Source: Rhodospirillales bacterium
Lineage (GTDB): Bacteria > Pseudomonadota > Alphaproteobacteria > ATCC43930 > CGMCC-115725
Length of the DNA: 32,120 bases
Assembly (NCBI GenBank): GCA_027315365.1
Contig: DAHUYF010000168.1
Span: 1 to 32,120, forward strand
Reading direction: 5' to 3'
A program made the position numbers and the translations under genes. Position 1 is the stretch's first letter. The number at the start of each line of letters is the position of its first letter. Positions 6,593-15,195 of the stretch are shown piece by piece. The notes under the pieces are model-generated. The model made no database searches, was not told the origin of the DNA, and saw only the letters and a list, made by a program, of their open reading frames with translations.

Positions 6593-7596
6593 GCGGCGGA
6601 GGGGTGGGACGGGATGCCGCGGCGATCGGCGGGAATGTGGCGATCGAGCCAGCGCGCCAGCGGCGCCAGCGCGGGATGGGCGAGATCGCCCTCGATCAGC
6701 CGCCAGACGCGCGGGATGTGCGCGAGATAGGCGCCCTTGCCGTCGCGCCGCGAGAGGCGGGTGAAGATGCCGACGATCTTGCAGTTGCGCTGCGCCCCCA
6801 GCACGGCATAGGAGGCGGCGAACGCCGCGCGGTCGAGCGTGGGGAAAGCCGCGAGATAGCGCGCGCGCATCGCGGCGGCCAGAGCCTGCGGCACATCGCG
6901 GCGCGCATCCTCCAGCAGCGAGACGAGATCGTAGGTCACGGGCCCGATCACCGCGTCCTGGAAATCGAGGAGGCCGCAGGCGGCGATCCCCTCGCGCCCG
7001 TCGAGCAGCATCAGGTTGTCGACATGGTAGTCGCGCAGCACCAGGCTCGCCGGCACGCCACGCGCCGGCGGCAGCAGCCGGCGCCAGAGCGCCAGATACT
7101 CCTCGCGCAGGCCCGGCTCGGCGGCCCGTCCGGTCATCGCCGGCAGGTACCAGTCGACCAGCAGCACCGCCTCGGCGAGCAGCCGTTCGTCGTCATAGGG
7201 CGGAACCTGCGGCGGCGCCGCGTCCAGGCCGCGATGGAGCGCCACCAGCAGGTCGACGGCGAGCGCATAGAGCGGCTCCTCCGCCGCGCCGTCGGCCAGG
7301 AGCCGCGTATAGGTGGCGTCGCCGAAATCCTCGAGCAGCAGCAGCCCGGCGGCGACGTCCTCGGCGAGGATGCCCGGCGCGCTGAAGCCCAGGCCGCGCA
7401 GCAGGCGGGCGATCGCCAGGAACGGCCGCACATCCTCCTGCGGCGGCGGCGCGTCCATCAGCACCGCGCGGAAGGGCGGCGCCTCGAGCCGGTCGTAGCG
7501 GCGGAAGGAGGCGTCGCCGGCGAGCGTGCGGCGCGCCGCGTCGCCCCAGCCGGCAGCGGCGAGGAACCCGGCAATGAGCTCGGCCCGCTCAGCCAT
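6589..7596 (-). CDS. amgK: AmgK, N-acetylmuramate/N-acetylglucosamine anomeric kinase
   Basis: A 335-residue member of the aminoglycoside phosphotransferase (APH) kinase fold. It has an N-terminal nucleotide-binding segment (LAGDASFRRYDRL), the catalytic loop VLRDYHVDNLMLL with catalytic Asp189, and the metal-binding LLDFQDAVIGPVTYDL with Asp211. Pairing with a MurU-type nucleotidyltransferase indicates a cell-wall-sugar kinase, not an antibiotic resistance enzyme. It overlaps murU by 4 bases and tsaE by 8 bases, so all three are likely co-transcribed. In the known pathway it phosphorylates the C1 hydroxyl of MurNAc and GlcNAc using ATP. Confidence 0.88.
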   Translation of the reverse strand: MAERAELIAGFLAAAGWGDAARRTLAGDASFRRYDRLEAPPFRAVLMDAPPPQEDVRPFLAIARLLRGLGFSAPGILAEDVAAGLLLLEDFGDATYTRLLADGAAEEPLYALAVDLLVALHRGLDAAPPQVPPYDDERLLAEAVLLVDWYLPAMTGRAAEPGLREEYLALWRRLLPPARGVPASLVLRDYHVDNLMLLDGREGIAACGLLDFQDAVIGPVTYDLVSLLEDARRDVPQALAAAMRARYLAAFPTLDRAAFAASYAVLGAQRNCKIVGIFTRLSRRDGKGAYLAHIPRVWRLIEGDLAHPALAPLARWLDRHIPADRRGIPSHPSAA

Positions 7597-8068
7597 CGGC
7601 GATGCCCTGAAGCCGCTCGGCCCAGGCGCCGGCGGCGGCGAGCCGCGCGGTGCGCGCGCCGGGATCGCGCCCTTCCGCCAAGGCCAGCAGCAGGTGCCCG
7701 GCGGGCAGCAGCGCGCCCAGCCGCTCCGGCCATTCGATCAGGCTGATGCCGTCGCCCCAGGCCTCCTCGATGCCGAGCTCGAGGGCTTCTTCCGGCGCGC
7801 GCAGGCGATAGAGGTCGAAATGCCACACCGGCGGCTTGCCGGCGAAGGCGTAGATCTCGACCAGGGTGAAGGTCGGGCTCGGCACTTCGGTCGCGGCGCC
7901 GCCACAGGCGCGGATGAAGGCGCGGGCGAAGCTGGTCTTGCCGCTGCCGAGCGGGCCGGCGAGAGCGATGACATCGCCCTGCCGGGCGCGCAAGGCCAGC
8001 CGCGCCGCGAGGCGGGCGGTGGCGGCCTCATCCGGCAATGCGACGAGCAACTCTCGGGCGGCGATCAC
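7589..8068 (-). CDS. tsaE: TsaE, tRNA t6A biosynthesis ATPase
   Basis: A small P-loop ATPase of 159 residues needed, with TsaB, TsaC and TsaD, for threonylcarbamoylation of A37 in ANN-decoding tRNAs. The Walker A motif AGPLGSGKTSF has Lys44. Family motifs follow in order: PSPTFTLVEIY, WHFDLYRLRAPEEALELG and ISLIEWPERLG. The start is a GTG at 8068, with AAGGGG six bases upstream as a Shine-Dalgarno. It is the first gene of the tsaE-amgK-murU-addB-addA run. The gene before it (Gfo/Idh) ends 55 bases upstream on the same strand, so readthrough is possible. Confidence 0.94.
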   Translation of the reverse strand: MIAARELLVALPDEAATARLAARLALRARQGDVIALAGPLGSGKTSFARAFIRACGGAATEVPSPTFTLVEIYAFAGKPPVWHFDLYRLRAPEEALELGIEEAWGDGISLIEWPERLGALLPAGHLLLALAEGRDPGARTARLAAAGAWAERLQGIADG

Positions 8069-8123: not shown

Positions 8124-9122
8124 TCAGGGCGCCTCGACCGGCTCGACCGCGCCGCTGGCGGCGGAGCGGAAGATGGCTTCGAGCGCGGCGATGTTGGCGA
8201 TCATCTCGGATTGCGGCACGGGATAGGGGGCGCGGCCTTCGGCGGCATCGGCGAAGGCCTCGAGATTGGCGCGCACCGCCGGGGCGGCGGGGTAGTCGCG
8301 GCTCTCGGGCCGCTCGCCGCGCCGGCAGGTGGTGAGCACCCAGCCCTCCGGCGCCTCGGGATGCGCCTTGTCGCGAACCTCGGCCCAGCCGCGATTGCCG
8401 AAGACGGCAAAGCGCCCGGCGAAGGGGGTGGCCAGGATCGCCGAGAGCAGCAAATTGGCGCCGGACTTGAACGTGACCAGCGCGCCCAGCGTGTCGCCGT
8501 TGACGAGATCGCTGCCGAGCGCGCGGGCGCTGGCAAAGGCGCGCTCGGCCGGGCCGAGCAGCCCCACCGCGAGGTCGAGCTGATGGATGCCGGTGGCGGT
8601 CATCGGGCCGGCTGGCGCCTCGGCGGCGCTGAGGCGCCAATTCGCCGGCGGCAGGCTCAGGAACTTGTCCTGGCTGAACGCCGCTTCGATCTGCAGCAAG
8701 GTGCCGAGCGCGCCGCTCGCCGCCAGCCGCTTCACCTCCTGCATCGGCGGCTCGAAGCGGCGCTCGTGCCCCACCGCGAGCACCACGCCTGCCGCGTTGC
8801 AGAGCCGCACCGACTCCCTGACGTCGGCGAGGCGCAAGGCCAGCGGCTTCTCGCAGAAGACGTGCTTTCCGGCCGCCGCCGCGGCGGCGATCTGCCCGGT
8901 GTGGAGGGTGTGCGGCGTCGCCAGCACGACGCCCTTGATGGCGGGATCGGCCAGCGCCTCGGCGAGGCCGGCGGAGACGGCGATGCCGCGCCGGCGCGCC
9001 CATTCGGCCGATGTCGGGTCGGGATCGACGGCGCGACGGACGCGCAGCTTGCCGCTCTCCGCCAAGGTCGCGGTAATGATCCGGCCCCACCAGCCCAGCC
9101 CGACGACCGCAACCTCCAGCAT
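8124..9122 (-). CDS. Gfo/Idh/MocA family NAD(P)-dependent oxidoreductase
   Basis: Cytoplasmic dehydrogenase of 332 residues. The Rossmann fold begins at the N-terminus with VAVVGLGWWG (residues 4-13). The family's EKP motif is in HVFCEKPLAL with Lys92, followed by VGHERRFEPPM and the C-terminal-domain motif MTATGIHQLDLAVGLLG, which carries the catalytic His and Asp positions. The family oxidises sugars, inositols and related hydroxy compounds, or reduces imines and biliverdin; the substrate cannot be read here. GGAGGGG upstream of the ATG is a good Shine-Dalgarno. It is divergent from the ferredoxin-NADP reductase gene across 110 bases, and is not part of the DNA repair/cell-wall run. Confidence 0.88.
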   Translation of the reverse strand: MLEVAVVGLGWWGRIITATLAESGKLRVRRAVDPDPTSAEWARRRGIAVSAGLAEALADPAIKGVVLATPHTLHTGQIAAAAAAGKHVFCEKPLALRLADVRESVRLCNAAGVVLAVGHERRFEPPMQEVKRLAASGALGTLLQIEAAFSQDKFLSLPPANWRLSAAEAPAGPMTATGIHQLDLAVGLLGPAERAFASARALGSDLVNGDTLGALVTFKSGANLLLSAILATPFAGRFAVFGNRGWAEVRDKAHPEAPEGWVLTTCRRGERPESRDYPAAPAVRANLEAFADAAEGRAPYPVPQSEMIANIAALEAIFRSAASGAVEPVEAP

Positions 9123-9232
9123 CGACCCCTCCGGCCCGCCCGTTCATGCGCGCTGCGGGCTTAGCAGATCGCAATTGCGCCGCGCCAGCGCCGCCGCCAT
9201 GGTAGCGCCGGTCGCGGCGGAGGCGAGAGGCG

Positions 9233-10252
9233 ATGGCGGGCGAGGTGCAGCGGGGGGATGTGGCGATCATCGGCGCGGGGCCGGTCGGGCTCTTTGCCGT
9301 CTTCGAATGCGGCATGCTGAAGATGCGCTGCCATGTGATCGACGCGCTCGACGTGCTGGGCGGGCAATGCGCGGCGCTCTATCCCGAAAAGCCGATCTAC
9401 GACATTCCGGGCCACCCCCGCATCGACGGCGCAGCCCTCATCGACCGGCTCGCCGAGCAGGCGGCGCCGTTCCATCCGGTCTATCACCTGGCGCAGCAGG
9501 TGGAGCGGCTGGCGGCGCTGCCGCAGGGCGGGTTCCGCATCGAGACCTCGCTCGGCACGGCGATCGAGACGCGCGCAGTGATCATCGCCGCCGGCGCCGG
9601 CGCGTTCGGGCCGAACCGGCCGCCGCTGCCCGGAATCGAGGGCTTCGAGGGCAAGAGCGTCTTCTACCTGGTGAAGCGGCGCGAGGATTTCCGTGGGAAG
9701 CGCGTGGTCATCGCCGGCGGCGGCGACAGCGCCGTCGACTGGGCGCTGTCGCTAGCCGAGGTGGCGGCGCAGGTGATGGTGGTGCATCGGCGGCCCAAAT
9801 TCCGCGCCGCGCCGGAATCGGCGGCGCGGCTCGAGCAGCTGGCGCGCGCCGGCCGCATCGAGCTGGTCATCCCCTATCAGCTTCACGGGATCGACGGCGG
9901 CGACGGACGGATCGAGGCGGTGATCGTCGCCGATCTCGAGGGCCGGACGCGGCGCCTGCCGGCCGACCGGCTGCTGCCCTTCTTCGGGCTGTCGACCGAT
10001 CTCGGGCCGATCGCGGGATGGGGCCTGGCGCTCGAGCGCCACCACATCGCGGTCGATCCCGCGAGCTGCCGGAGCTCGGCGCCCGGCATCTTCGCCATCG
10101 GCGACGTCGCGACATATCCCGGCAAGCTCAAGCTCATCCTCTCGGGCTTCGCCGAGGCGGCGCTGGCGGCGCATGCGATCTTCCCGCTGGCGCATCCCGG
10201 CGAGGCGCTGCATTTCGAATACTCCACCACCAAGGGCCTGCCGGGGAGCTGA
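9233..10252 (+). CDS. Ferredoxin--NADP(+) reductase, thioredoxin-reductase-like type
   Basis: A flavoprotein of 339 residues that moves electrons between NADPH and ferredoxin or flavodoxin. The FAD-binding motif VAIIGAGPVGLFAVFECG starts near residue 10, and LGGQCAALYPEKPIYDIPG follows. The NADPH-binding motif IAGGGDSAVDWALSLAE is mid-protein, and the second FAD motif GIFAIGDVATYPGK precedes LILSGFAEAALAAH. No CxxC disulfide is present in the NADPH domain, which separates it from thioredoxin reductase. The C-terminal EYSTTKGLPG tail matches YumC/FNR2-type enzymes. The ATG at 9233 has a GAGG-rich stretch just upstream. Confidence 0.92.
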   Translation: MAGEVQRGDVAIIGAGPVGLFAVFECGMLKMRCHVIDALDVLGGQCAALYPEKPIYDIPGHPRIDGAALIDRLAEQAAPFHPVYHLAQQVERLAALPQGGFRIETSLGTAIETRAVIIAAGAGAFGPNRPPLPGIEGFEGKSVFYLVKRREDFRGKRVVIAGGGDSAVDWALSLAEVAAQVMVVHRRPKFRAAPESAARLEQLARAGRIELVIPYQLHGIDGGDGRIEAVIVADLEGRTRRLPADRLLPFFGLSTDLGPIAGWGLALERHHIAVDPASCRSSAPGIFAIGDVATYPGKLKLILSGFAEAALAAHAIFPLAHPGEALHFEYSTTKGLPGS

Positions 10253-10274
10253 ACCGCCGGGCGGCGATCGCCGC

Positions 10275-10304
10275 GAGACAGCCGCCGCGCCGTCATGCTA
10301 CGCT
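10275..10304 (+). promoter_or_regulatory. Candidate promoter of the MAPEG gene
   Basis: GAGACA (10275-10280) and TACGCT (10299-10304) are separated by 18 bases, and the -10 is preceded by TGC, an extended -10 arrangement. The predicted start of transcription is about 30 bases before the ATG at 10341. Matches are partial, so this is tentative. Confidence 0.35.
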
Positions 10305-10340
10305 TTGGGGCACAAGAACGTCATCGGGGGAAACGCGGTC

Positions 10341-10727
10341 ATGACGATCGAACTCAAGATGCTGCTGTGGTCGGTGGTGCTGACTTTCGTCCAGGTGCTG
10401 GTCGCGTCGATGGGCGCCAACCAGCAGGCCGGGCTGGCGACGCTCGCCGGCAATCGCGAGGACATGCCGGAACTCACCAGCTGGGCCGGGCGGGCGCAGC
10501 GCGCCCACCGCAACATGCTGGAGAACCTGCCGCTGTTCATCGCGTTGGTGCTGATCGCGCAGCTCGCCAACCGCACCAATGCGATGACCGCGCTCGGCGC
10601 CGAGCTGTTCTTCTGGGCGCGGCTGGCGCAGGCGGTGCTCTACATCGCCGGCGTGCCCTGGCTGCGCACGCTCGCCTGGCTGGTCTCGGTGGTCGGGCTC
10701 ATCCTGATCTTCCTGCAGCTGGTGTAG
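10341..10727 (+). CDS. MAPEG family membrane protein
   Basis: A 128-residue integral membrane protein. Four hydrophobic helices are visible: MLLWSVVLTFVQVLVASMGA, LPLFIALVLIAQLA, LFFWARLAQAVLYIAGV and LAWLVSVVGLILIFLQLV. The loop motif RAHRNMLENLPLF between helices 1 and 2 is the MAPEG signature (membrane-associated proteins in eicosanoid and glutathione metabolism). Bacterial members are poorly characterised; some have glutathione transferase activity. I chose the ATG at 10341 because GGGGGAAA precedes it and the homologous region begins here; the frame is open further upstream, but into the end of the preceding gene. Confidence 0.87.
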   Translation: MTIELKMLLWSVVLTFVQVLVASMGANQQAGLATLAGNREDMPELTSWAGRAQRAHRNMLENLPLFIALVLIAQLANRTNAMTALGAELFFWARLAQAVLYIAGVPWLRTLAWLVSVVGLILIFLQLV

Positions 10728-11217: not shown

Positions 11218-11240
11218 CGACGATAGCGAGCGCGTGACTA

Positions 11241-11286
11241 CCCCCACCCCGACCTTCGTCCGTGACGGGGCAGCGAGGGGTGGGGG
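11241..11286. repeat. Inverted repeat between convergent SnoaL-like gene and divL
   Basis: CCCCCACCCC (11241-11250) is the exact reverse complement of GGGGTGGGGG (11277-11286), with 26 bases between. It lies in the 85-base gap between two convergent stop codons. It may help end transcription from both sides or be a copy of a GC-rich intergenic repeat. Confidence 0.5.
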
Positions 11287-11302
11287 CGAGCGCCGCGGAC
11301 GC

Positions 11303-13768
11303 CTAATCGCCGGCCGAGCGGCGGGCGGCGAGTTCGGAGGGAAGAGCGGCGGGCGCGGCGGGGGTCGCGTTCAGGTAGCAGGTGACGGTGGTGCCGCTGC
11401 CGGGGCGCGAATCCATCTCCACCGTGCCGCCATGCAGCTCGATGAAGCTCTTGACCAGCGACAATCCCAGGCCCGGGCCGGATTGGCGCGCATTGGGGCT
11501 GCCGCGCTCGAACTTCTCGAAGATGCGCGCCTGATCCTCGCGCGGCACGCCGACGCCGGTATCGGCGACGATCAGCGCCACGCGATCGGCGATGCGGCGC
11601 GCGGCCAGCGTCACCGTGCCGCCGGGCGGGGTGAATTTGAGCGCGTTGGAGATCAGGTTGAACAGCGCCTGCTTCAGCCGCCTCTCGTCCGCCAGCAGCG
11701 CGCCGATATCGGTCGGGCAGTCGAAGTCGAGCTTCAAATTCTGCTTGCGCGCGCGCTCGCGGGTCAGCGACAGCACGCTCGACATCAGCGTGTGGATGTC
11801 GACGTCCTGCGTCTCGAGCGTCATGTAGCCGGCCTCGATGGTGGCGAGGTCCAGGATGTCGTTGATCAGCGACAGCAGCCGGTGCGAGCTGTCGAGGATG
11901 CCGCGGCTGTAGTCGAGCTGGCGCGGGCTGAGGTCGCCGAAATACTGGTTGGTGAGGATCTCGGCGAAGCCGATGATGGCGTTCAGCGGCGTGCGCAACT
12001 CGTAGGAGACGTTGGCGATGAACTCGCTCTTGAGCCGGCCCGCGGTCTCCAGCGCCTCGTTGCGCTCGCGCAGCGCATGCTCGACCCGGGTCGAGTCGGT
12101 GACGTCGAGATAGCTCAGCAGCGTGTTGCCGTCGGGCAGCGGCACGATCACCGCTTGCAGCATCGAGCCGTCGCGCCGCGCCAACCGCGTGCTCTCGGCG
12201 GTATGCGCGGTGAGCCTCGCGATGATGCGGCGCTTGATCGCCGGCCAGTCGCCGCCGTCATCGTAGAAGGCGCGCTGCTTCTCGATGATCTCGCCGACAT
12301 GCGGCTCGCCCAGGAGGTCGGCGGGCGCCAGCTGCCACATCTGCGCATAGGCCGGGTTCGACAGCTTGAGCCTGCCGTCGCTGCCGTAGACGGCGACCGC
12401 TTCGTAGAGATTGTCGAGCGTCTCGCGCTGCACCTCGATCATGGTGTTGTAGGAGCGTTCGAGCGCCAGCTTGTCGGTCACCTCCTCATAGACGAAGGTG
12501 AGGCCGCCGAAGGGATGCGGCGAGACGACCAGACGCAAGGTGCGCTCGTCCGGCAGATGCAGCAGCTCCTCCTGCGGCTCGATCAGCGAGGTGAACATGG
12601 CGAGCTGCTGGCGCTTGAAGGCGCGGAAATCGGCGTGCTCGGGAATCCGCCGGCGCTCGCGCAGCCGCTCCAGCACTTCGTCCAGCGTCGGCGCGGTGGC
12701 GAGCCACTCCTCCTCAAGCCGCCAGAGATGGCCGAAGGCGGTGTTGTGGAAACTGAGCCGCATGTCGGGGCCGTAGATGGCGATGGCGACCGCGACGTTC
12801 TCCAGCACGTCGGCATGTGCGGCGATGTGGCGCGCCAGCTCCGCCTGGATGTTCTCGAGGTCGGTATAGTCCTCGGCGTAGCCGAGGAGATCGCCGCTGC
12901 CGGCCAGCGGCGCCTCGTTGAATTCCATCAGCCGGCGCGAACCCGCGACGACGATGTGGTGGCTCTCCGATTGCGGCACCGCCGAGTTGCGCGCGCGGAC
13001 GGCGAGCGCGCGGCCATTGTCGCCGATGACGCCGGCGGCGATCTCGCGGCCCTCGGCCAGCACTTTTGCCGACGGCGCGTCGAGCGCCGCGGCGTAGGCG
13101 CGGTTGCAATCGACCAGCCTGAGTTCGGCGTCGCGGCGCCAGACCGGCAGCGGCAGCGCATCGAGCATGGCGCGCAGCCGGTCGCGCTGCTGCTGGAGCT
13201 GGGCGCGCTCGGCGGCGGCGGCGACGCGGCTGGAACCGTCGAGGAAGGCGACGATGTCGGTGCCGGCGACGCGGCGGCCGACCGCGTCGAGCTGGGTCGA
13301 GCCGTCGCCAAGGCGCAGGCTCTGCTGGAAGGCGGTGCCGTCGGCGCAGAGCTGCTTGATCGCCGCTTCGAGCGCGGCCGCGTCCTGGCGCTCGGCACGC
13401 GCCAGGAGGTCGGGGAGGCCCGGCGCCGCCACGTCGCCCAGCGCCTTGAGCGAGCCCGCAAAGAAGCGCTCCTCGCCGGCGCAGGCCCGCCACAGCGCCA
13501 GCGGCAGCCCGCCCAGCACGCCCTCGGCCTCGGCCAGCGACGCGGCGAGACGGTCGCGCTCGGCGGCCAGATTGCGCGCCTGCCGGCGAGCCTGCACCAG
13601 GAGCAGCCCGGCCGCGACCAGCAGGGCAAGCAGCCCGCCGCCGGCGATCAGCGGCGCGGTCGCGGCGTCCGGCGCGGCGAAGGCGGGCGCGGGCGACAGC
13701 ACCGCCGTCCCGGCAACGCCGAGCCACGCCGTCAGCCGCACCGCGTAACCTCTTGACCTATCAAACAT
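11303..13768 (-). CDS. divL: DivL-type PAS sensor pseudokinase (Tyr in place of phospho-His)
   Basis: An 821-residue membrane sensor. A signal-like N-terminus (LTAWLGVAGTAVLSPAPAFA) precedes a transmembrane helix (LIAGGGLLALLVAAGLLLV), a coiled segment and at least three PAS-like domains, around AMLDALPLPVWRRDAELRLV, VAVAIAIYGPDMRLSFHNTA and YEAVAVYGSDGRLKLSNPAY. The dimerisation box reads ANVSYELRTPLNAIIGF, so Tyr589 (codon 12002-12004) replaces the usual His. The ATP domain is intact: NLISNALKFTPPGG, DTGVGVP, IFEKFERG and GPGLGLSLV. Tyr at this position is the hallmark of Caulobacter DivL, which binds DivK and tunes CckA-CtrA cell-cycle phosphorelay. Orthology is inferred from that residue and architecture. 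Confidence 0.88.
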   Translation of the reverse strand: MFDRSRGYAVRLTAWLGVAGTAVLSPAPAFAAPDAATAPLIAGGGLLALLVAAGLLLVQARRQARNLAAERDRLAASLAEAEGVLGGLPLALWRACAGEERFFAGSLKALGDVAAPGLPDLLARAERQDAAALEAAIKQLCADGTAFQQSLRLGDGSTQLDAVGRRVAGTDIVAFLDGSSRVAAAAERAQLQQQRDRLRAMLDALPLPVWRRDAELRLVDCNRAYAAALDAPSAKVLAEGREIAAGVIGDNGRALAVRARNSAVPQSESHHIVVAGSRRLMEFNEAPLAGSGDLLGYAEDYTDLENIQAELARHIAAHADVLENVAVAIAIYGPDMRLSFHNTAFGHLWRLEEEWLATAPTLDEVLERLRERRRIPEHADFRAFKRQQLAMFTSLIEPQEELLHLPDERTLRLVVSPHPFGGLTFVYEEVTDKLALERSYNTMIEVQRETLDNLYEAVAVYGSDGRLKLSNPAYAQMWQLAPADLLGEPHVGEIIEKQRAFYDDGGDWPAIKRRIIARLTAHTAESTRLARRDGSMLQAVIVPLPDGNTLLSYLDVTDSTRVEHALRERNEALETAGRLKSEFIANVSYELRTPLNAIIGFAEILTNQYFGDLSPRQLDYSRGILDSSHRLLSLINDILDLATIEAGYMTLETQDVDIHTLMSSVLSLTRERARKQNLKLDFDCPTDIGALLADERRLKQALFNLISNALKFTPPGGTVTLAARRIADRVALIVADTGVGVPREDQARIFEKFERGSPNARQSGPGLGLSLVKSFIELHGGTVEMDSRPGSGTTVTCYLNATPAAPAALPSELAARRSAGD

Positions 13769-13858: not shown

Positions 13859-15154
13859 TCAGTAACGGTAATGTTCGGGCTTGTAGGGGCCGCTCTCGGC
13901 CGCGCCGATATAGGCGGCCTGCTCGGGGGTCAGCTTCGTCAGCTTGACGCCAAGCTTGCCGAGATGGAGCGCCGCCACCTTCTCGTCGAGGTGCTTGGGC
14001 AGCACGTAGACCTTCTTGTCGTACTTTCCCGCGCTGGTGAAGAGCTCGATCTGCGCCAGCACCTGGTTGGTGAAGGACGCGCTCATCACGAAGCTGGGAT
14101 GGCCGGTGGCGCAGCCGAGATTGACCAGCCGGCCCTTGGCGAGAACAATGAGGCGCTTGCCGTCGGGGAAGACGACCTCGTCGACCTGCGGCTTGACCTC
14201 TTCCCATTTGTAGTTCTTGAGCGCCGCGATCTGGATCTCGCTGTCGAAATGGCCGATGTTGCAGACGATGGCGCGGTCCTTCATCCGGCGCATGTGCTCG
14301 ACGGTGATGACGTCGATGTTGCCGGTGGCGGTGACGAAGATGTCGCCCTGCGCCGCCGCCTCGTCCATGGTGACGACCTCGTAGCCTTCCATCGCCGCCT
14401 GCAGCGCGCAGATCGGATCGATCTCGGTGACCATGACGCGGGCACCCTGGCCGCGCAGGCTCGCCGCCGAGCCCTTGCCGACATCGCCGTAGCCGGCGAC
14501 GACCGCGATCTTGCCGGCGAGCATGACGTCGGTGGCGCGCTTGATGCCGTCGACGAGGCTCTCGCGCACGCCGTAGAGATTGTCGAATTTCGACTTGGTG
14601 ACGCTGTCGTTGACGTTGATCGCCGGCACCTTGAGCTTGCCCGCCTTCATCATCTCGTACAGGCGATGCACGCCGGTGGTGGTCTCCTCGGAGATGCCGC
14701 GCACCTCCTTGAGCAGCTCGGGATACTTGTCGTGCAGGATCTTGGTGGCGTCGCCGCCGTCATCGAGCACCATGTTGGGGGTCCAGCCGCCGGGACCGCG
14801 CAAGGTCTGCTCGATGCACCACTCGTACTCCTCCTCGCTCTCGCCCTTCCAGGCGAAGACCGGGATGCCGCGCTCGGCGATGGCGGCGGCGGCATGATCC
14901 TGGGTCGAAAAGATGTTGCAGGAGCTCCAGCGCACGCTGGCGCCGAGCGCCATCAGCGTCTCGATCAGCACCGCGGTCTGGATGGTCATGTGCAGGCAGC
15001 CGGTGATGCGGGCGCCCTTCAGCGGCTGCTGCTTGCCGAATTCCGCGCGCAGCGCCATCAGCCCCGGCATCTCGGTCTCGGCAATGGCGATCTCGCGCCG
15101 GCCCCAACCGGCAAGCGAGATATCGGCGACTTTGTAGTCGGCGGCAGCGGCCAT
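13859..15154 (-). CDS. ahcY: S-adenosylhomocysteine hydrolase (adenosylhomocysteinase)
   Basis: NAD-dependent enzyme that splits S-adenosylhomocysteine into adenosine and homocysteine, removing the inhibitor of methyltransferases. Length is 431 residues. Visible motifs are [46 protein letters not shown], the NAD site [38 protein letters not shown] and the C-terminal KPEHYRY. Many alphaproteobacterial homologues carry a roughly 40-residue insert before EETTTG; it is absent here, as in the human enzyme. Two ATG codons are adjacent (15157 and 15154); AGGGAG lies just upstream and either could be used. It has its own candidate promoter after a terminator. Confidence 0.96.
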
Positions 15155-15195
15155 CATCCTGCTCCCTGGAAACACGCGAAGAATTCAAGCGCCGG

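Follow-up and report, generated by a model that had tools for sequence, protein, structure and literature searches.

The window, by which we mean the whole 32,120-nt stretch analysed (contig DAHUYF010000168.1 of the Rhodospirillales bacterium assembly GCA_027315365.1), carries on its minus strand an 821-aa open reading frame (11303–13768) whose translation contains no internal stop. Pfam, structure matching, phylogenetic trees and an AlphaFold model identify it as divL, encoding a DivL orthologue with a transmembrane (TM) segment, four PAS-like folds, and DHp and CA domains. Along the minus strand, the genes are ordered chvG–hprK–rapZ–PTS IIA–HPr–ptsI–ahcY–divL–(insert)–tsaE–phosphotransferase–nucleotidyltransferase–addB-like nuclease. 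The upstream syntenic neighbour ahcY (13859–15175, minus strand; Pfam AdoHcyase) occupies the same order in loci L289, L290 and L291, and tsaE (7589–8068, minus strand; Pfam TsaE, 119.7 bits) serves as the downstream marker. The insert between divL and tsaE (8124–10727) encodes a minus-strand Gfo/Idh oxidoreductase and two plus-strand products, a member of the pyridine-nucleotide-disulphide-oxidoreductase family and a MAPEG protein. The plus strand also has an open frame of 840 aa running antisense to divL (11234–13756), which was taken as a by-product of the GC-rich genome and not as a gene.

The preliminary description of this DNA had placed a TM helix ahead of the PAS domains, and a clear TM-like stretch is indeed found at residues 40–58 (13595–13651; Kyte-Doolittle 2.57), within a predicted helix spanning residues 40–87. 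Residues 14–32 are weakly hydrophobic (best 19-residue Kyte-Doolittle mean, 1.32) and followed by an A-F-A-A motif; the N-terminus of a DivL from the same genus (L034 of genome G003) has a similar layout, and a signal-peptide heuristic, positive for 56 of 145 DivL rows, proved too rough to be of use. The AlphaFold model, computed from 45 rows (pLDDT 85.5, pTM 0.41), comprises a helix that begins at residue 40 and, after it, four PAS-like folds—a count that is our reading of the strand order in the model—and the DHp and CA domains, all encoded on the minus strand. PAS-like fold 1 (residues ~88–178; 13235–13507) is deduced from the order of modelled strands and helices, with no Pfam match listed there. 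Fold 2 (~204–300; 12869–13159) is accompanied by a PAS_8 match (197–230), while for fold 3 (~324–430; 12479–12799) Pfam reported two PAS_7 stretches, with best-only coordinates at 451–563, i.e. those of fold 4 (~453–556; 12101–12412). The DHp domain spans residues 557–645 (11834–12100; HisKA at 580–647) and the CA, or ATP-binding, domain residues 651–800 (11369–11818; HATPase_c at 694–801). HisKA (71.3 bits) and HATPase_c (102.3 bits) both scored above their cut-offs, and PAS families were matched as well.

Translation and alignments bear out that the motif VSYELRTPLN, starting at residue 587, puts Tyr589 (codon 12002–12004, TAC on the minus strand) in the place of the phospho-accepting His, and that the ATP-binding boxes are intact, with N708, D736, G738, G740, F753, G766 and G768 all canonical in the alignment. 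Tyr also occupies this position in G002, a separate assembly (~82% identical) and the sole other genome of the genus with a match covering the site, whereas the eight other kinases of the window's genome that were aligned all possess His (8/8). For these reasons Tyr589 does not look like the outcome of chance or of a single-base error, which the preliminary description had considered as a possible refutation. Comparing the window gene with that of G002, pN/pS ranged from 0.05 to 0.22 across PAS, DHp and CA, with the lowest of the three values in the DHp domain (0.049) and 0.187 in the CA domain, showing that the ATP-binding fold of this DivL is under purifying selection.

The identity as DivL was borne out by the best structure match, tree, synteny and partner genes. 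Among PDB sequences, the best match of the window protein was Caulobacter DivL (4q20; 193 bits, vs. 150 bits for the next entry). The modelled DHp-CA module likewise aligned best with 4q20 in VIA-align (Z 24.8, rmsd 4.2, 224 residues), whereas Foldseek ranked 4q20 fourth by E-value and aligned the kinase modules at 42–43% identity. As the next chain scored just 1.2 Z units lower (Z 23.6), the fold alone would not decide the matter. In a quick LG+G4 tree, 163 DivL rows formed one clade against seven other kinases of the window's genome (SH-aLRT 100), and in a mixture-model tree 95 DivL rows again formed one clade against four other kinases; the window protein fell inside the DivL clade in both. 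Both trees are quick reconstructions whose root lies on long outgroup branches, with a long-branch warning, and take as outgroups the genome's nearest kinases, without a named PleC or DivJ.

Synteny extends to named relatives. Sinorhizobium meliloti Ak57 and Rhizobium NLR16a share the order chvG–HPr kinase–PTS IIA–HPr–ahcY–divL–tsaE–nucleotidyltransferase (the HPr kinase being annotated "serine/threonine protein kinase" and, in Rhizobium, chvG "sensor histidine kinase"), and Sphingomonas parapaucimobilis has ahcY–divL–tsaE–phosphotransferase–nucleotidyltransferase–PD-(D/E)XK nuclease. In these three records, divL carries a generic name and is directly adjacent to tsaE; the acceptor is Tyr in all three as well as in one Shinella record.

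A CckA–ChpT–CtrA phosphorelay had been held to be implied by the presence of DivL, and a genome search for cckA, chpT, ctrA and divK recovered all four. CtrA (at C42) scored 422 bits against a cut-off of 350. ChpT, also at C42, exceeded the cut-off of Pfam PF10090 and stayed below those of both NCBIfam ChpT models (134.0 vs. 225 and 126.8 vs. 240 bits). CckA resides on C166, its sole PDB matches at E ≤ 1e-30 being the CckA entries 5idj and 5idm; two HDFNN-type kinases, on C48 and then C6, had been dropped as CckA candidates before. The sole PDB match of the DivK candidate at E ≤ 1e-20 was Caulobacter DivK, and PleD, above its cut-off, directly follows DivK on C173. Neither DivJ nor PleC was identified, the best score against the DivJ model among the six kinases scored being 244 bits (cut-off, 1000). 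In itself, the window divL is an ordinary DivL copy, one more from a genome equipped with DivK and the CtrA relay. The general form of the claim did not stand: a DivK branch does not follow from DivL alone, as DivK was absent at E ≤ 1e-30 from 27 of 160 DivL-positive genomes tested.

Nor did Tyr hold up as the diagnostic feature of DivL. The residue is described in PMC4211667 as conserved throughout DivL homologs with the exception of one Ala. Our survey found genuine orthologues with His, with other residues (Phe, Val, Cys, Thr) or without a kinase module. In an evenly drawn sample of the class, with DivL matches at E ≤ 1e-75 in 162 of 289 genomes and one DivL tallied per genome, the acceptor was Tyr in 127, His in eight and another residue in 18 cases, while eight copies had no kinase module and one a stop codon. 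(Of these genomes, 158 were also tested for DivK and comprise 123 with Tyr, eight with His, 18 with another residue, eight without the module and the one with the stop; the four that complete the tally, G000, G245, G290 and G315, all have Tyr.) Acceptor calls are unsure where the module is badly decayed, e.g. in L166, L169, L176 and L177. That the eight copies without a module might have it in another nearby frame was dismissed, the flanking stretches analysed yielding no DHp-CA match better than E 0.01. Within the window's family (f1; 39 genomes), DivL was found at E ≤ 1e-90 in 30 genomes and the site was covered in 28, with Tyr in 23 (window included) and His in five; all five His copies belong to genus g11, which also contributes three Tyr copies. 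In family f37 (25 genomes, two genera), His was present in 23 of 23 DivL copies, one-contig genomes among them, together with E590 and with all six ATP-box residues checked intact. Across 213 aligned DivL rows, a set that over-represents the window's family and f37 and is not an even sample, 150 had Tyr and 33 His. No report of a His-bearing DivL was found in a search of an open-access library.

The survey also turned up several irregular loci. In L043 (G287) the acceptor codon itself is a TAG stop, beyond which the remaining DHp domain can still be read; seen in one assembly, this may be an error, a nonsense mutation or a truncation. DivL of G150 is spread over two frames, a 543-aa PAS part and a 280-aa DHp-CA part with Tyr and intact boxes (L230 and L247), by a frameshift or a true split, and G082 possesses two DivL copies (L046, L068), both with Tyr. 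No DivL was detected at the thresholds used in G011, G020, G024 and G329 of genus g9 in the window's family (for G329 the sole threshold applied was E ≤ 1e-90) or in G025–G028 of family f2; divL may have been lost in these genomes, though most of the window's family has it.

Tyr at the acceptor goes with DivK. Among the 158 class-sample genomes, DivK was present in 114 of 123 with Tyr, 7 of 8 with His, 7 of 18 with another residue, 2 of 8 without a kinase module and in the single stop-codon genome (1/1); Tyr genomes thus contrast with other-residue (His aside) and module-less genomes (114/123 vs. 9/26; Fisher p = 5.5e-10, uncorrected for kinship). Six of the 131 DivK positives (G040, G121, G150, G154, G235, G303) are weak matches (E 1e-31 to 1e-35, 47–52% identity) that may be other receivers. 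These counts agree with and extend the association of DivK with the kinase module of DivL published in PMC2877005 and PMC4211667. According to PMC2877005, a short DivL goes with an absent DivK. Genus g159 is an exception, L181 (G269) and L225 (G190) being without a kinase module (no flank DHp-CA match better than E 0.01) in genomes that have DivK (73% identity); another exception is mentioned in PMC9430884.

In Caulobacter, R553 is needed for DivK docking, and the T557N exchange disrupts DivK binding (PMC4211667). The former residue is conserved, its equivalent Arg592 being Arg in 150 of 150 Tyr rows. At the latter, residue 596 (codon 11981–11983), the window protein has Asn where Caulobacter has Thr557, as do 118 of 150 Tyr rows in total; docking can therefore not be copied from Caulobacter residue by residue.

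His and Tyr codons (CAC or CAT vs. TAC or TAT) are one transition apart. The DHp domain of the His-bearing G316 is 91% identical to that of the window, with about one residue in ten differing, the Tyr/His exchange included. The mixture-model tree, built from an alignment that omitted the acceptor residue, required a minimum of seven changes at this position; one lies between the other kinases (His) and DivL, which leaves six within DivL, one of which may be a reversal to Tyr within genus g11. In an earlier 170-row tree, the 20 changes included a single step from His to Tyr at the base and five steps from Tyr to His. The trees place the His-DivLs as reversions from Tyr. If His were ancestral, all Tyr rows would have to group together, a grouping rejected by the AU test (30 Tyr rows held as one clade among 45 rows: a cost of 575 log-likelihood units, p-AU 9e-5), and ancestral His was rejected with it. 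Two other origins were likewise discarded: paralogy, as 29 of 33 His-DivLs have ahcY and/or tsaE alongside in short flanks (both in 24, neither in 4), and domain replacement, as DHp and CA of all 33 score higher against a Tyr-DivL than against every member of a panel of 23 non-DivL kinases, drawn from the window's and some other genomes rather than from each His-DivL's host.

The His-bearing DivLs of f37 and g11 share with the window protein the clade and mostly the ahcY/tsaE neighbourhood, and differ in the acceptor; of all 33 His rows, 26 have intact ATP boxes and 7 damaged ones. A link between His and ATP-site loss did not hold in five independent pairs (median p 0.25). Raw counts from the 99-row tree set gave damage in 7 of 15 His vs. 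2 of 78 Tyr rows with truncated rows dropped; in the full row set, the ATP-box test is failed by 24 of 150 Tyr rows too, for some only because of a contig or frame end. The CA domain of f37 is under purifying selection like that of Tyr-DivLs, with pN/pS of 0.17–0.30 (three pairs, synonymous sites saturated or nearly so) vs. 0.19–0.49 in six Tyr pairs; the L159/L162 pair, whose ATP boxes are gone, gave 0.63.

What, then, does a DivL with Tyr at the acceptor do? That the gene is decaying or Tyr589 an assembly error is scarcely credible: the window does come from a 215-contig assembly, but the same Tyr in the separate same-genus assembly and in most family copies (23/28) speaks against it, and so does the low pN/pS across PAS, DHp and CA. 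We consider it very improbable, too, that the protein is a PleC-, DivJ- or PdhS-type kinase that lost its His independently and merely looks like DivL. Generic as well as DivJ and PdhS NCBIfam models matched it, and no DivL model was among the best 25 of 82 families; yet all 25 scores were below cut-off (for instance 186.5 bits vs. 1000 for DivJ, NF050805, and 134.7 vs. 2000 for PdhS, NF041593), and tree, synteny and best structure match point to DivL. An active kinase autophosphorylating on Tyr589 is improbable, although the entry title of 4q20 still reads "tyrosine kinase" and the boxes are intact in a CA domain under purifying selection. Caulobacter DivL is reported to have no kinase activity (PMC4211667), and Phe, Val, Cys, Thr or an absent module elsewhere in the clade means that not every member of the family needs a Tyr that can be phosphorylated.

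With considerable confidence, we favour a DivL orthologue that acts as an acceptor-dead pseudokinase, sensing DivK~P and steering CckA, with Tyr fixed once at the base of the clade and His returning later. To the orthology and the partner genes, both observed, we add the biochemistry by inference. With Tyr as acceptor, the protein would be unable to pass on a phosphoryl group; its DHp-CA module would dock DivK, preferring DivK~P, and the docking state would be relayed to CckA, setting whether CckA phosphorylates or dephosphorylates ChpT and CtrA. Sensing of DivK~P and control of CckA, both carried over from Caulobacter, are the most likely roles. Tyr, presumably fixed a single time at the clade base, would have been retained in most lineages that keep DivK—with nine of 123 Tyr genomes lacking DivK as a counterpoint—without being indispensable, given the several apparent returns of His.

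With Caulobacter crescentus DivL (4q20; PMC4211667), the window protein shares the Tyr acceptor, intact N, G1, F and G2 boxes, N-terminal PAS domains, the docking-site Arg, and DivK and CckA in the genome; besides Asn596 for Thr557, it differs by Phe601 for Tyr562 and by the 42–43% identity over the kinase module. Rhodobacterales DivLs, as described in PMC2877005 and PMC9430884, belong to the same gene family and share a PAS-rich sensor part, but are mostly short without DHp-CA, some degenerate, in genomes without DivK, whereas the window keeps both. A further reference point is the Caulobacter Y550H mutant, which still binds DivK~P, acquires an autophosphorylation that DivK~P stimulates, and impairs growth (PMC4211667). 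His-DivLs would be its natural counterparts and are putative kinases by this analogy, which suggests that some lineages live with a Y550H-like state of predicted activity; DivK was present in the three f37 genomes tested. More tentatively, and at somewhat under even confidence, kinase death could be reversible in nature: His would have been lost once and regained by single-base changes in several lineages (one in the window's family), f37 DivLs would be kinases brought back to life that respond to DivK and feed into the CtrA relay, and in some other His lineages the damaged ATP site would keep the protein silent as a second lock.

The survey around the window gene matters more than one more DivL. 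DivLs that differ at the acceptor, some of them ~90% identical in the DHp domain, are natural matched pairs that bear on the purpose of the silence, on the use of an ATP site without catalysis and on a possible rewiring of the cell cycle by a revived DivL; relatives that seem to have regained the catalytic His offer a route to test why the DivL enzyme was switched off.
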